From: Microvirga mediterraneensis
GTDB taxonomy: Bacteria; Pseudomonadota; Alphaproteobacteria; Rhizobiales; Beijerinckiaceae
Reading direction: 5' to 3'
DNA length: 64,000 bases
Assembly: GCF_013520865.1 (NCBI RefSeq)
Contig: NZ_JACDXJ010000001.1
Location: 2,347,001 to 2,411,000 of the forward strand
Shown here: in pieces, positions 32,774 to 55,885 of the stretch
Layout of the letters: each line of letters begins with the position of its first letter
How positions within the stretch are numbered: position 1 is the stretch's first letter
Position numbers and translations under genes: made by a program
The notes under the pieces: model-generated
What the model was told of the DNA's origin: nothing
Seen by the model: only the letters and a program-made list of their open reading frames with translations
Databases searched by the model: none

Positions 32774-32880
32774 TCCCTCCCCCTTGAGGGGAGGGATTAA
32801 GGGTGGGGGTGACGGCGCCACACCTTCATAGGCTATCGCTCACACCCCCACCTCCAGCTCCTCCCCTCAAGGGGGAGGAG
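32774..32880. repeat. large imperfect inverted repeat between livK and livF
   Basis: Left arm begins TCCCTCCCCCTTGAGGGGAG and continues AAGGGTGGGGGTG. The right arm is its near mirror, CACCCCCACCTC...CTCCCCTCAAGGGGGAGG. Each arm is itself a small hairpin. This style of repeat recurs between genes in Hyphomicrobiales. It probably folds in the livK-livF mRNA. Confidence 0.6.
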
Positions 32881-48346: not shown

Positions 48347-49638
48347 CGGGAGCGCTCCGGGGCGCGGCCAAGGGCGTCGGACGTCTTCGGCAATAAACGG
48401 GTCATAATCTCGTCGATGGAAAGGTGGAGAGAGGACATATCCCGGGTGGAGCCGTGGGGCACGACGTCATAGCGGCCATCGGCGCGTCCCACCAGGGTCA
48501 GATCGGCCTTTCCGGGATGGGCGCAGCCTTTCGGACAGCCCGAGACATGAACGGACATCCTTTGCGTCAGGACGTCGCCGCAGGTTTCGGCGATCCGCAG
48601 GGCGTCCGTAGGGGCAGGCGTCAGGCCGCTCGCGCAATCGGGCTTGCCGGGGCAGGCGATCAGCGACAGGCGAGGGTCGTCGGCGGCGGTGATGAAGCCG
48701 GCATCGGCGGCTTCCGCCATCAGCGGCGCGACATGCTCGCCTGCAACGCCCGGCAGCAGAAGGCCACGGGTGAAGGACAGGCGGATCTCGCCGCGGCCGA
48801 ATCGTTCGCTCCATGCAGCCGTCTGGTCCAGTTGCGCTGTCTGGCAGCGGCCGAAGGGCAGGGCGAGAAGAACGGCCTGCCCGCTTGTCGTGGGAAGCAA
48901 GCCCGCCGGGATCGCGGCCGGGCGCTGTTGGGGCACTGCGGCGGGGGCGAGCGCCGCCGATGTGGCGAGTTCTTCGGGAAGGCCGGGCTCGAGGTCGCGC
49001 AACCGGCGTGCCCCGGTCCTGCCTGAGAGGCGCATGGCTGCGAAGCCCGCCAGGATGGAGAGCACGGCCTCGGGAGCGCGGCCGCAACCGGCGGTGCCGA
49101 TCCAATGAAGTCCCTCGGCGGTGGCGAGCCCGAAAGCTATGGCATCGCCTTTGCCTGTCGCCACGAGATGGAGATCGGCCCCGATGGCGTCGAGCGGCAT
49201 CGCGCCGCCGCCATCGACCGCGACGAAGAACTTCGCCGGAAGTCCGTCGAGGTGGACGGCCTTATCCTCGATGGCCCGTGCCAGGGCGAGTGGATCGCCA
49301 TGGTCGAACGGGTCGAGACCGGCGAGCGGGGACAATGCGGTGAGGCGGTTCGGACCGTCGCCCTCCGGCTCCACGAGGCCCTCGCGTTCGAGCCGGGCGA
49401 GCAGGGCGGGAAAGGTCCCTTCGCTCACGCCCCGGATCTGCAGGTTGCCGCGGGCGGTGATGTCGAGATGGCCGTTGCCGTACGTGCGTGCCGCTTCGGC
49501 GATGATGCGTGCCTGACCGGCCGTGAGCCTGCCACTGAGCGGATGCAGGCGCACGAGGAGCCCGTCGCCGGTCGCCATGGGGCGGCGCACGCCCGGGCAC
49601 CACCCGCGACGCCTCTCGATGATCGGCTGCGCGCTCAT
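48343..49638 (-). CDS. cobG: precorrin-3B synthase (oxygen-dependent)
   Basis: 431-residue sulfite/nitrite-reductase-like enzyme. RGWCPGVRRPMATGDGLLVRL is the N-terminus. The 4Fe-4S/siroheme-type Cys clusters are in IACPGKPDCASGL and SGCPKGCAHPGKADL. It hydroxylates C20 and forms the lactone using O2, the mark of the aerobic route. The start overlaps the cobN stop by four bases. No insertion or gap is seen. Confidence 0.93.
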   Translation of the reverse strand: MSAQPIIERRRGWCPGVRRPMATGDGLLVRLHPLSGRLTAGQARIIAEAARTYGNGHLDITARGNLQIRGVSEGTFPALLARLEREGLVEPEGDGPNRLTALSPLAGLDPFDHGDPLALARAIEDKAVHLDGLPAKFFVAVDGGGAMPLDAIGADLHLVATGKGDAIAFGLATAEGLHWIGTAGCGRAPEAVLSILAGFAAMRLSGRTGARRLRDLEPGLPEELATSAALAPAAVPQQRPAAIPAGLLPTTSGQAVLLALPFGRCQTAQLDQTAAWSERFGRGEIRLSFTRGLLLPGVAGEHVAPLMAEAADAGFITAADDPRLSLIACPGKPDCASGLTPAPTDALRIAETCGDVLTQRMSVHVSGCPKGCAHPGKADLTLVGRADGRYDVVPHGSTRDMSSLHLSIDEIMTRLLPKTSDALGRAPERSR

Positions 49639-52600
49639 TCGGCCGCCTCCTTGCGCTCATCGTCGAAGAAGGCTGCAACGGAATTGAGGCGGCTCGCCCA
49701 CAAGCCGCGACGGCGCGCATCGGCAAGGCGGTCGCGGATGGCCTGCGCGGCGGCCGGATTGGCGGCTTCGATCCGCGTCCAGGTGGGTTCGTCGGCGATC
49801 AGCGCCGTGAAGACGAGATCGAGGGTGTCTGACGGAACGGCATCCGTGGTCGCCGCGAAGGCGAAGAGCGCATCGACCCCTTGGGCGATTTCGGCCGCGC
49901 CGCGCCAGCCGTGGCGTAGCTGACCGGCGATCCAGCGCGGGTTCGTCAGGCGCCCGCGCACGAGGCGGTCCATATCTTCCCCGAGCGTTCGGGCCTTCGG
50001 TTGCTGCGGACGGCTCGTATCGAGGCTGTAGACAGCCGGCGAAGCGCCGAGCCTCTGTGCCGCTGCCGCGAAGCCGCCGATAGCATCGGCGGCGGAATCG
50101 CCGTCCAAGATGTCGCGCTCGGCCACGTCGCTCACATGCACGAAGGCCTCGGCCCGCTCGACCCGCTGAGGGAAGCTCCCATCGGCCCGGGCCTTGCCGC
50201 CGGGCCCGAAGGCATGGGACGTGCCGTCGAGATAGGTGCGCCCCAGGTCGTGTCGCGCGGCCCATTCGCCGTCGAGCGCCTGGGCGGACACGCCTGCCCC
50301 ATAGGTGCCGGGCGCGGAGCCGAAAACGCGGGACAGCGCCTCGCCGCGCCGTCTCGCGGCGGCGAGTTCGTTCCACTCGTCGTCTTCGTCCAGCGCGGCG
50401 ACCGCGCGGGCGGCCTGATCGAGAAGCGCGATCTGATCCGGGAAGGTATCGCGGAAGGCGCCGGAGACGCGCAGGGTCACGTCGGCGCGGGGCCGGTCCA
50501 TGAGCGGCTGGGGCACGATCTCGAAGCCCGTCACCCGGGTCGAGGCATGGTCCCAGGTCGGGCGCACGCCCATCAGGGCGAGCGCATGCGCGATGTCCTC
50601 GCCGCCGGAGCGCAGCGTCGGAGAGGCCCACAGGTCCATCACGATCCGGCGCGGCCAGTCGCCTTCCTCCTGCAGGTGGCGGCGCACCACTTCCGTCGCC
50701 GCGCGATGCCCGAGTTCCGTTGCGGCACGGGTGGGGATCGCCCGTGGGTCGAGGGTCGCGAGGTTGCGGCCGGTGGGCAGCACGTTGGTCTGCCCGCGCG
50801 AGGGCGAGCCGGACGGGCCGGGCGCGACGAAGCGGCCGTCGAGAGCCTTCAGCAGGCCTTCGCGCTCACCGGTGGAGCAGGGCTCGAAGCCATCGGGCGC
50901 GTGGCCGAACACGTGGAGCCCGTCGCGGATCGTTACTTCCCCGAGGTCGCAGAGATGCGCATCGAGCCGTGTCAGCGCCTCGTCCATCGGCATGCCGTCC
51001 TCGACGCCACAGGCCGATGCGAGGCCGCTCGTCCGGGCGCGGTCCAGAATCTCCTTCGCCACGAGTTCGGCCCGGCCGGGATGGAGCACCTGGGCGGAGG
51101 AGAATTCCTCGACCAGTTCGCGCAGGGCGCCGGCCTCGCCGTGCAGGCCCGCCTCCGCCGTCAGCGGCGTGAGATGGCCGATGGTGACGGCGCCGATGCG
51201 GCGCTTGGCGGGTGCGGCCTCGCCGGGATCGTCGACGATGAACGGATAGATCACCGGGACCGCGCCGATGGCGAGGCGCGGCCAGCAGACATTGGAGAGC
51301 GCCACGGCTTTGCCGGGCAGCCATTCCGTGGTGCCGTGGGTGCCGAGATGAACGAGGACGTGGATGCGCTCAAGGACTCTGAGACCGTGATAGAAGGCAA
51401 GATAGCCGTGGCTCGGCGGACATTCGGGGTCGTGATAGAAGCCCTTGCGGTCGAGGCCGTGACCCCGATCCGGTTGCAGCGCGACGAGAACGTTTCCGGC
51501 GCGAACCGCGCGGAAGTGAAAAGCCTCATCGGCGAATGCGGGATCGTTCTCGGGAGCACCCCAGCGCTCGTCGATGGCGGCGCGGTGTTCCGTCGGCAGC
51601 GCGTCGAGCCAGTCGCGGTAGCAGGAGAGCGGAACCTCGAACGGCGCCTCGCCTTCCGTGAGAAGCGGCATGAGGTCTTCTGCCGAAAAACGTCGCCCGG
51701 CCGCATATCCGGCTTGTTCGAGATGATCGAGGATCGCGCAGGCGCTCGCCGGGGTGTCGAGCCCGACGGCGAAACCGGCGCGTCCGCCGCGCGCGGGATA
51801 ATCGGACAGAACCAGCGCAAGCCGCCGCTCGTGACGCGGCGCGCGGGCAAGGCGCACCCATGCGGCGGCCAGGTCCGCGACGGCATCGATGCCGCCCGCG
51901 TCCGGCGCCTGGATGCGGCGGGAGAACGCGAGCGACGGATCGGCGGGATCGTCGGCCTTGAACGAGATCGGCCCGGCGGCGATGCGGCCGTCGAATTCAG
52001 GGAGCGCGATCTGCATGGCGAGATCGGCGGCGGAGAGCCCGCGCGGCGAGGCCTCCCAGGCCTCCTTGGGGCTGCCGACGGGGATCGCCTGGAGGATCGG
52101 GCAATCGGCTCCGTCGAGCACGAAAGCTTCATCGTCGCGGGACGAGAAGGCGGTTGTCGTGACGATGATGTCGGGGCGGCGCGCCTCGATCGCCCGTCGA
52201 ACGACGGCGACCGCGTCCGGATCCTTCAGGCTCGACACGGCAAGGACGAGCCAGTCGATGCCGCGCTCCTTCAGTGCGGCTGACAGCGCCTCGACGGCCT
52301 GCGTGTCGCCGGAGAGAATGGCGGAACGGTAGACGAGGAGATAGGCGAGGGGACGTTTGTCTGAGAAGCGGGAGAGGATGACTTCCGGCTCGACGATGCT
52401 GCCGTCAGACTCTCCTCCCCACAAGGGGGAGGGAAAGGCGCCACAGCCCTCATCCTGAGGAGCCTGCGCAGCAGGCGTCTCGAAGGAGGGTCCAGTGTGC
52501 GCTGGAAGATCCTTCGAGACGCAGCCTGACGGCTGCTCCTCAGGATGAGGGCTGCGATTGAAATGTCTGTCTGCAGGAGATCCTTCGGGTGCCCATGCAA

Positions 52601-53129
52601 AAGCGCGAGGCACGATGCGCGGCGGTTCTGCAAAGGCATCGACGTTGCCGATCTCGACTTCGACGCGCGCGAGAAGGCGGCGCATGTTGTCGATGCCGCC
52701 GGCCTGGAAATAGGCCTCCAGATCGTCGCATAGCGCCTGGGGGACGGTGGAATAGGCGGTGAGACGGGGATCGGGGCGGTCGTCGCCGGGCAGCACCGCA
52801 AGCTTCACCCCATGAGCCCGACAGGCCCGCGAGAGATGCTCGATGCCGTAGCGCCAATAATCGAGGCCGCCGAGGCAGCGCACGAGGACGAAGCGCGCCT
52901 TCGATGCGGTCTTCTCGCTATAGAGATCGGCGGAGAGAGGATGGCGCAGGCGGCGAAGCGAGGCGAGGCGGAGCGATGCCCCGCCTGCCTTCAGACGTTG
53001 CGCGGCCGCCAGCGCTCCGAGGTCACTGTCCGCGAAGGAGAGGACGACGATGTCCCCCGGCGGCTGCTGGAGGTCCGTGGCCTCCGCGCCTTCGTCGAGG
53101 GAGATCGCTGTGACCGGGAGGAGGTGCAT
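49635..53129 (-). CDS. cobN: cobaltochelatase large subunit, with repeat insertion
   Basis: 1164-residue H-subunit of the ATP-dependent cobaltochelatase (CobNST). It shows HVLVHLGTHGTTEWLPGKA, LPTGRNLATLDPRAIPTRAA and HDLGRTYLDGTSHAFG. Residues about 192-240 are an in-frame insertion derived from an intergenic repeat: a Pro/Glu/Ser-rich stretch with SPHPEEQPSG and SFETPAAQAPQDEG, in the linker before LAYLLVYRSAILSGDTQ. The frame is kept. cobS and cobT are elsewhere. The start is 1 base after the cobW stop; no strong ribosome site is seen. Confidence 0.93.
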   Translation of the reverse strand: MHLLPVTAISLDEGAEATDLQQPPGDIVVLSFADSDLGALAAAQRLKAGGASLRLASLRRLRHPLSADLYSEKTASKARFVLVRCLGGLDYWRYGIEHLSRACRAHGVKLAVLPGDDRPDPRLTAYSTVPQALCDDLEAYFQAGGIDNMRRLLARVEVEIGNVDAFAEPPRIVPRAFAWAPEGSPADRHFNRSPHPEEQPSGCVSKDLPAHTGPSFETPAAQAPQDEGCGAFPSPLWGGESDGSIVEPEVILSRFSDKRPLAYLLVYRSAILSGDTQAVEALSAALKERGIDWLVLAVSSLKDPDAVAVVRRAIEARRPDIIVTTTAFSSRDDEAFVLDGADCPILQAIPVGSPKEAWEASPRGLSAADLAMQIALPEFDGRIAAGPISFKADDPADPSLAFSRRIQAPDAGGIDAVADLAAAWVRLARAPRHERRLALVLSDYPARGGRAGFAVGLDTPASACAILDHLEQAGYAAGRRFSAEDLMPLLTEGEAPFEVPLSCYRDWLDALPTEHRAAIDERWGAPENDPAFADEAFHFRAVRAGNVLVALQPDRGHGLDRKGFYHDPECPPSHGYLAFYHGLRVLERIHVLVHLGTHGTTEWLPGKAVALSNVCWPRLAIGAVPVIYPFIVDDPGEAAPAKRRIGAVTIGHLTPLTAEAGLHGEAGALRELVEEFSSAQVLHPGRAELVAKEILDRARTSGLASACGVEDGMPMDEALTRLDAHLCDLGEVTIRDGLHVFGHAPDGFEPCSTGEREGLLKALDGRFVAPGPSGSPSRGQTNVLPTGRNLATLDPRAIPTRAATELGHRAATEVVRRHLQEEGDWPRRIVMDLWASPTLRSGGEDIAHALALMGVRPTWDHASTRVTGFEIVPQPLMDRPRADVTLRVSGAFRDTFPDQIALLDQAARAVAALDEDDEWNELAAARRRGEALSRVFGSAPGTYGAGVSAQALDGEWAARHDLGRTYLDGTSHAFGPGGKARADGSFPQRVERAEAFVHVSDVAERDILDGDSAADAIGGFAAAAQRLGASPAVYSLDTSRPQQPKARTLGEDMDRLVRGRLTNPRWIAGQLRHGWRGAAEIAQGVDALFAFAATTDAVPSDTLDLVFTALIADEPTWTRIEAANPAAAQAIRDRLADARRRGLWASRLNSVAAFFDDERKEAAE
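52411..52433. repeat. CCTCCCC/GGGGGAGG hairpin inside cobN
   Basis: CTCCTCCCC-ACAA-GGGGGAGGG, the same style as the hairpins at 32774-32880 and 19979. Inside the cobN coding sequence it supplies the codons of a PSPLWGGE-like segment. Confidence 0.55.
52445..52553. repeat. 109-base palindromic repeat inserted in-frame in cobN
   Basis: Perfect 19-base outer arms (AGCCCTCATCCTGAGGAGC at 52445-52463 and its complement at 52535-52553) and perfect 13-base inner arms (GCGTCTCGAAGGA at 52475-52487, complement at 52510-52522). Such long palindromes are usual in intergenic DNA of this order; here it is translated. Confidence 0.8.
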
Positions 53130-55560: not shown

Positions 55561-55600
55561 GAATACCTCTTGGCCACCCCTCCGGCGGCATTTGGGTTGC

Positions 55601-55770
55601 ACGATGACGGCAGGTCTCCTGGCTCGCGGGTCGATGCTTTGCGCTACCGCCTTCCCGGGCTTTCAGCCCAGTGGCATTTGGAGCGAAGGCTCGCCGCTTA
55701 CAGTTGCGGGGGCAGCCGCGGTGTCTCACCGCATTCCCTTTTCACCCCGTTGCCGGGGCACCGTCCGTTA
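55601..55770 (-). ncRNA. cobalamin riboswitch
   Basis: Read on the minus strand: GGTGCCCCGGCAACGGGGTG then TGAAAAGGGAATGCGGTG, then the B12 box GCCCCCGCAACTGTAAGCGG, GCCACTGGG, GGGAAGGCGG and finally CGCGAGCCAGGAGACCTGCC. All canonical blocks are in order. It lies 40 bases upstream of cbtB and controls the nine-gene operon; high adenosylcobalamin should turn it off. Confidence 0.95.
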
Positions 55771-55885
55771 CATGCTTACCGGGGCGAGGAGCATCTTTCA
55801 AGCCTTGGCCGTGAAATCGGTTAGTCTTGAAATCGCGTCTGAGCCTGTTCATGGTGCGGCCCACTCATGCGAAGGCAGGTTCGGG
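55771..55885. other. divergent cobalamin promoter region
   Basis: About 115 bases between the riboswitch start and cobO. Promoters for both the minus-strand riboswitch operon and plus-strand cobO-cobQ should lie here. No second riboswitch is visible on the plus strand. Confidence 0.35.

Follow-up and report, generated by a model that had tools for sequence, protein, structure and literature searches.

Introduction

In Coxiella, MITEs are reportedly fused in frame to genes, and the Rickettsia palindromic elements RPE-1 to RPE-3 are said to go back to Ogata et al. 2000. According to the sections of the literature drawn on here, palindromes lying in frame within genes are already known in Rickettsia, Wolbachia and others. 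RPE-1 to RPE-3 are described as palindromes of ~100–150 bp that lie either between genes or, in frame, within conserved ones, where they occupy solvent-exposed parts (PMC3767692, PMC2229807); at similar sites, orthologues reportedly carry one and the same group (PMC3767692). For RPE-4, RPE-6 and RPE-7, different groups lie near one place in orthologues, and the relevant section leaves open whether this reflects a hotspot or one insert that has diverged (PMC3767692). Wolbachia palindromic elements are likewise described as small elements fused in frame to genes (PMC3767692), and in-frame MITEs have been reviewed (PMC2229807). Among REPs, the GTAG and CGTC types have been located within conserved genes, including those of DnaE2, Uvr proteins and tRNA synthetases; in two Xanthomonas species, recB holds different REPs at about one site; and CGTC repeats are presented, in the portion of the study consulted, as not linked to transposases (PMC3733652).

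Here, we describe a palindromic element, F1, that lies in frame in cobN of Microvirga mediterraneensis, within a stretch of 64,000 nucleotides that was analysed as a whole and is called the window below; the family names F1 to F5 were coined in this analysis. F1 resembles RPE-1 to RPE-3 in its size class (copies of 92–121 nt, near the ~100–150 nt of those palindromes) and in its in-frame position in conserved genes. It differs from them, in a comparison made by description and not by sequence, in belonging to free-living soil bacteria and in forming a cloverleaf with variable side hairpins, and also in that only one of 39 full copies in its own genome was found in a recognised gene. Whereas RPE-1 to RPE-3 are described as the same group at similar sites in the sections consulted (PMC3767692), the CobN and XdhA sites treated here hold unrelated families at one site. 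Compared with RPE-4, RPE-6 and RPE-7, the elements F1, F2, F3 and F5 are separate dispersed repeats, and therefore the hotspot reading is favoured for the CobN and XdhA cases.

F1 is not a GTAG-tagged REP of 20–40 nt, none of its 39 copies ending in GTAG by eye, nor a CGTC REP with a stem of 8–9 bp, a loop of 4–5 nt and a terminal CGTC, the CGTC of its consensus lying inside the cloverleaf and not at either end. Set against the REPs as characterised in the available part of PMC3733652, F1 and F3 are longer and without the 8–9 bp stem form, while F2 and F5 resemble the CGTC type (F5 starts CGTCATTGCGAG and F2 ends CCATGAC). The sharing of one site, seen in recB for Xanthomonas REPs (PMC3733652, in part), here concerns linkers of CobN and XdhA, across two genera and with as many as four families. 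The outer arms of F1 are terminal inverted repeats, as in MITEs, and F1 is like the MITEs and the Wolbachia elements, as far as the consulted descriptions go, in being a small in-frame gene fusion; it differs in that no target duplication or TA ends were recognised by eye in the flanks of the 39 copies. No earlier description of F1 was found in the literature searched, most subscription papers being outside its scope. In-frame palindromes as such are known already; what is newer is that unrelated families recur at a single site.

The Insert in cobN

The cobN frame is open from end to end, and both the F1 palindrome and a second hairpin beside it are stop-free within CobN (Table 1). Between the same anchor codons there are 210 nt in the window cobN and 30 nt in empty orthologues, and in the alignment to the solved CobN 9uk9 a run of 71 query residues (166–236) stands opposite 13 chain residues. 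The in-frame palindrome within cobN is confirmed. A preliminary description of this DNA had read it as a palindrome passing through cobN without a frameshift, and the open frame and PF02514 match bear this out; its perfect 13-nt inner run stands, while the outer arms measure 20 nt and not 19. The adjoining CTCCTCCCCACAAGGGGGAGG hairpin is present as described. The extra segment is real but comprises ~60 codons instead of about 50. The gap that had been expected in related CobN proteins exists in 9 of 30 Microvirga loci, but these are more distant, and the two closest relatives (91% and 89% identical) also hold the insert. The proposed landing in a variable linker fits the 9uk9 alignment, and the mobility that it implies is suggested by presence, absence and turnover of inserts among relatives. 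A pseudogene or frameshifted cobN is ruled out by the open frame, the stop-free matches, the PF02514 score and the 9uk9 alignment, as is a conserved CobN domain by the empty sites among aligned Microvirga loci. The segment is presumably translated, and the added peptide presumably disordered.

Table 1. Features of the cobN locus, in positions of the window
Feature	Position	Strand	Basis
cobN, cobaltochelatase subunit CobN, host gene	49635..53129	-	open frame, 1164 aa; PF02514 901 bits; aligns to 9uk9 CobN
Extra segment of ~60 codons relative to empty orthologues	52416..52598 (boundaries approximate)	-	empty sites in L045, L050–L057
F1 palindromic element, cloverleaf	52444..52554	.	arm pairing, fold, at least 88 matches (40 of 74 candidates scored), 39 full-length copies
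F1 outer arm, left on + strand	52444..52463	.	arm complementarity
F1 outer arm, right on + strand	52535..52554	.	arm complementarity
Small side hairpin GCCTGC-GCA-GCAGGC	52462..52476	.	sequence and fold; family stems vary with compensation
Central hairpin GCGTCTCGAAGGA ... TCCTTCGAGACGC	52475..52522	.	arm complementarity
Small side hairpin GCAGCC-TGAC-GGCTGC	52521..52536	.	sequence and fold
F3 short form, CTCCTCCCCACAAGGGGGAGG, read as FPSPLWGGE	52412..52432	.	18 F3 arm matches in own genome, reversed control 0

Structure and Dispersal of F1

F1 is more than a simple palindrome. Its outer arms are 100% complementary over 20 nt, its inner pair (52475–52495 with 52502–52522) is 86% complementary around the perfect 13-nt run, and the RNA fold is a cloverleaf of outer stem, two small side hairpins and central hairpin, with an energy of −91.3 kcal/mol; shuffled sequences average −46.0 (sd 4.1; z = −11), and none of the 200 folds as well. 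Stems of 4 bp or longer arise in 59 of 77 side-hairpin segments from the ends of the full-length copies, in 22 sequence variants, compared with 18 on average and 27 at most in 500 re-pairings of the halves, and one side hairpin has compensatory changes in the RNAalifold table. Therefore, the fold belongs to the family. At gathering thresholds, Rfam gives no match on F1; the sole match in the whole window lies elsewhere and is a cobalamin riboswitch (RF00174, 136.5 bits, 55592–55778, minus strand) near cobalamin genes.

In its own genome, the F1 arm CCTCATCCTGAGGAGC has 76 matches with at most one mismatch, and the reversed pattern has none. Full-length copies, taken as arms paired 60–130 nt apart in loci fetched from this genome, number 39 and measure 92–121 nt from arm to arm, the element being ~105 nt long; these answer the earlier suggestion to look for other copies. 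Of 199 genomes from the order, 48 contain one or more matches to the arm pattern and 29 of those contain six or more, while the reversed arm never has more than one match in any genome; these are counts of arm matches, many of them to a variant arm, and not of full F1 elements. In the own genome, 33 ORFs in 21 loci extend 20 codons or more beyond an F1 copy in both directions. Outside the cobN locus, 20 of 21 spanning ORFs of at least 118 aa were scanned against Pfam and none passed the cut-off, the one weak match below it being to Opi1 (15.6 against 29.7 bits). F1 is a dispersed repeat, and the cobN copy is the only one found inside a recognised gene among the intact ORFs of at least 118 aa that were scanned.

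The CobN Linker in Microvirga

A search of 48 Microvirga genomes detected cobN in 35, and 30 loci were aligned. The site is empty in nine of the 30 (Table 1) and filled in 21, among them L046, which is cut at a contig end. Among named relatives, M. flocculans, M. vignae and M. roseola have an empty site, and Microvirga sp. Mcv34, VF16, M. calopogonii and M. tunisiensis a filled one. Several further CobN loci, L097, L101, L102 and L104 among them, were left out because the longest-ORF rule had picked a wrong, longer frame.

The contents of the filled sites are of several kinds. F1 occurs as two alleles that differ in their side hairpins and left-arm frames (A, PHPEE; B, LILRS), and L040 and L049 have half-length forms. 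F2 (GGCCGGGACAAGCCCGGCC, read GMAGTSPAMT) occupies the linker of L039, L041 and L042, and a related one is present in L043 together with a fourth hairpin, F4. F3 (CTCCCC...GGGGAG, degenerate in places) is alone in L044 and L048 and stands together with F1 in L028, L029, L031, L040 and L047. F2 and F3 are themselves repeated in the M. mediterraneensis genome, with 93 and 18 arm matches, respectively, and none for either reversed control. The window also holds a full-length F3 element at 32776–32878 (arms of 36 nt, 83% complementary), of the family of the short cobN hairpin. In a record named Chelatococcus composti, a CobN (L087) that is 83% identical to that of the window has an F3-like insert at the same site, which may reflect a transfer or a mislabelled record.

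XdhA and CobN in the Bosea Group

A second case is found in XdhA, which is present in 61 of 67 Bosea-group genomes. Matches run through the insert region in 16 of the 61 and end before it in 45, and all 17 of these 45 that were read directly have an empty site. The insert is F1 in full in six loci (L161, L162, L237–L240) and in short form in L245; in L163, L241–L244, L246, L247 and L249 it is F5, which is unrelated to F1 and is read RHCEERSDEAIQ, and the insert of L248 was assigned to F5 by peptide likeness only. F5 is dispersed in Bosea (e.g., 74 matches in G190 against 3 in the control) and absent from the M. mediterraneensis genome (2 matches, control 3). In the solved XDH 2w3r, the stretch corresponding to XdhA residues 330–370 falls between residues 309 and 310 as a clean gap.

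CobN of Bosea has a second site of this kind, which in 14 aligned loci holds F1 in one, a VIPG-type palindrome in five, F5 in two and another hairpin in one, is empty in three and is unclear in two. Ten further CobN proteins with F1 at this second site were picked for having F1. At the Microvirga CobN linker, F1 was found in none of the 14 Bosea-type loci and ten proteins aligned, and another palindrome lies just upstream of or close to that site in at least five of the 14 loci. At the second site of L110, F5 is followed by TTCGAGACGCAGGATGAG, which resembles a remnant of the F1 right half.

F1 Peptide in Other Proteins

Two peptide searches, with E-values ranging from 1e-20 to 2, place the F1 peptide in some 11 families of unrelated proteins: CobN, PBP1C, IleRS, XdhA, CobG, DnaE2, a dipeptide-type ABC ATPase, a glycosyltransferase, an E2 acyltransferase, UvrC and a transglutaminase-like protein. 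Of the hosts counted, UvrC (best E 0.06) and the transglutaminase protein (E 2.2, backed by L222) have the weakest matches, and P0063 was dropped at E = 8.5. In an NCBIfam scan of ten F1-bearing proteins, seven pass a named-function cut-off (IleRS, PBP1C, XdhA, CobG, DnaE2, CobN and UvrC), the ABC ATPase passes those for individual ABC components, and no cut-off is passed by the glycosyltransferase or the E2 protein. Aligned to the solved IleRS 8c9e, the IleRS stretch 480–540 sits between chain residues 415 and 419, again a clean gap. A query with the other left-arm frame gave 3 CobN proteins only and the first frame at least 59 proteins; as the two queries had different length limits, this is no more than a suggestion of a frame preference.

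Several candidates from the Bosea-group genome G204 were set aside: L223 and L235 matched no family, the repeat of L221 precedes the IolB domain, and in PhnJ (L202), an Opp-type ATPase (L226) and L224 the repeat is near the N-terminus or between parts and so not internal. In L202 and L226 the F1 peptide is ahead of the domain and the start codons are uncertain, and in L224 the F1 copy lies in an open frame of 1602 codons, behind a molybdenum hydroxylase-like part.

Conservation of the Arms

The arms of the cobN inserts differ less between loci than the codons around them. For allele A, 15 of 450 pairwise arm comparisons differ (3.3%), against 1966 of 10575 in flanking cobN codons (18.6%; third positions 36%), and for allele B, 12 of 300 (4.0%) against 1207 of 7050 (17.1%; third positions 33%). 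In the close trio L028–L030, which also has an extra upstream flank in common, the arms show 0 differences in 90 and the flanks 319 in 2115. Compared with flank third positions, variable sites are far fewer in the arms of the trio (0/30 vs 95/235, Fisher 8e-7), of allele A (3/30 vs 166/235, 1e-10) and of allele B (3/30 vs 140/235, 2e-7); compared with all flank sites, the Fisher values are 0.002, 0.0009 and 0.008, respectively. These tests ignore shared ancestry. Although 10 of the 30 arm sites of allele A are third codon positions, all three of its variable arm sites lie elsewhere, which constraint at the protein level does not explain.

Such data hint at an upkeep of the element itself and do not prove it. 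The element may be kept at the level of nucleic acid, by selection on folded DNA or RNA or by short-tract conversion, so that the element, and not the protein, would determine that stretch of the protein; we regard this as possible, with the odds leaning clearly against it. The XdhA loci agree with it in having slow arms, with 0 of 225 differences on the left and 5 of 225 on the right for F1 (flanks 22%) and 14 of 476 and 14 of 336 for F5 (flanks 20%), but separate recent insertions of one subfamily may also give near-identical arms. Against it, the contrast with second codon positions is not significant (p = 0.09, 0.32 and 0.44 for trio, A and B), and the left arm of B, which is in the other frame, differs by 8.0% pairwise with 3 of 15 sites variable (p = 0.41) and two of three changes at third positions, not clearly slower than the flanks. 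The left arm of A alone gives p = 0.06, and with single arms this weak a frame-independent conservation is not established. A wider proposal is slightly less probable again, namely that enzyme loops are lasting parking places in which unrelated palindromes alternate and evolve as nucleic-acid elements, their folded arms near-constant and slower to change than the gene around them, so that a selfish DNA structure would dictate the protein stretch.

Proposed Origin and Turnover of the Inserts

We consider the cobN segment to be an in-frame insertion of F1, and the linker to be a sink for unrelated palindrome families, as are the XdhA loop and CobN linkers of Bosea, with a probability of roughly 0.85. 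Unrelated families do occupy one site, empty sites exist beside them, and the filled loci examined have open frames. In the proposed course of events, palindromes of several families would insert occasionally at many places, and genic insertions would persist where a linker tolerates an added peptide, the frame is kept and no stop arises. A structured, dispersed element of ~105 nt such as F1 would thus have entered the CobN linker in frame, after the N-terminal region. Tolerant linkers would collect insert upon insert, and over the history of Microvirga F1 in its two alleles, F2, F3 and F4 would have been gained, stacked, shortened and lost at the CobN linker. This linker would tolerate a peptide of almost any sequence, and insertions that keep the frame and bring no stop would therefore survive there. 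Filled and empty flanks are not alignable base by base, and therefore no target-site duplication or exact insertion point can be read. Mobilisation by a RAYT is not supported, the own genome giving no match to PF01797 (Y1/RAYT transposase) and controls being positive in 5 of 14.

The states of the site are partly inherited. On protein and DNA trees of cobN with the insert removed, some nodes of which are poorly supported, the five states (empty, A, B, F2, F3) need 10 changes, compared with 4 if each had arisen once; 500 label shuffles average 17 changes, with minima of 11 and 13 on the two trees, and never come down to 10, so that the states are not randomly scattered. This agrees with a single ancestral insert per site that diverged or shortened and by its loss left empty sites, with no repeated landing, as do the sharing of alleles A and B by several species each, the likeness of the half-length forms in L040 and L049 to internal deletions of B and A, and the apparent F1 piece that L043 retains beside F2. 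We nevertheless hold such a history to be improbable. F1, F2 and F3 have different arms and are each a dispersed family of their own, L033, with F1, and L039, with F2, are sisters (support 0.995 and 1.00), and XdhA likewise holds F1 or F5. Within the insertion reading, some of the proposed insertions may instead be cobN alleles exchanged between species by recombination, given that A and B each retain side hairpins of their own and that the residues flanking F2 are common to L039, L041 and L042.

The added peptide might also have been selected as such, a longer flexible linker aiding CobN or its partners. The open frames and the identical right-arm frame in the 11 full F1 copies measured are in line with this, but very different peptides occupy the site, nine of the 30 loci do without one and the same peptide is found in unrelated proteins, which makes an adaptive linker a shade less credible still than a single ancient insert. 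An artefact, whether a misassembly or a cobN decayed to a pseudogene in this genome, has a negligible chance and nothing found in its favour, as similar filled loci recur across several separate assemblies with no internal stops in the matches listed, and the protein scores as full CobN.

Significance

The findings suggest that certain protein loops may be repeated landing sites for palindromic DNA, relatives having different, unrelated palindromes or none at the same spot. The choice between a hotspot and a diverged insert, as posed in the section of the Rickettsia study consulted (PMC3767692), can now be put to a genetic test, since a single genus of free-living bacteria offers both unrelated families and empty sites. 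The findings are also a warning that annotated proteins of Microvirga and Bosea contain stretches predicted to be translated repeats. Insertions of this kind may be a route by which enzymes gain new linkers.
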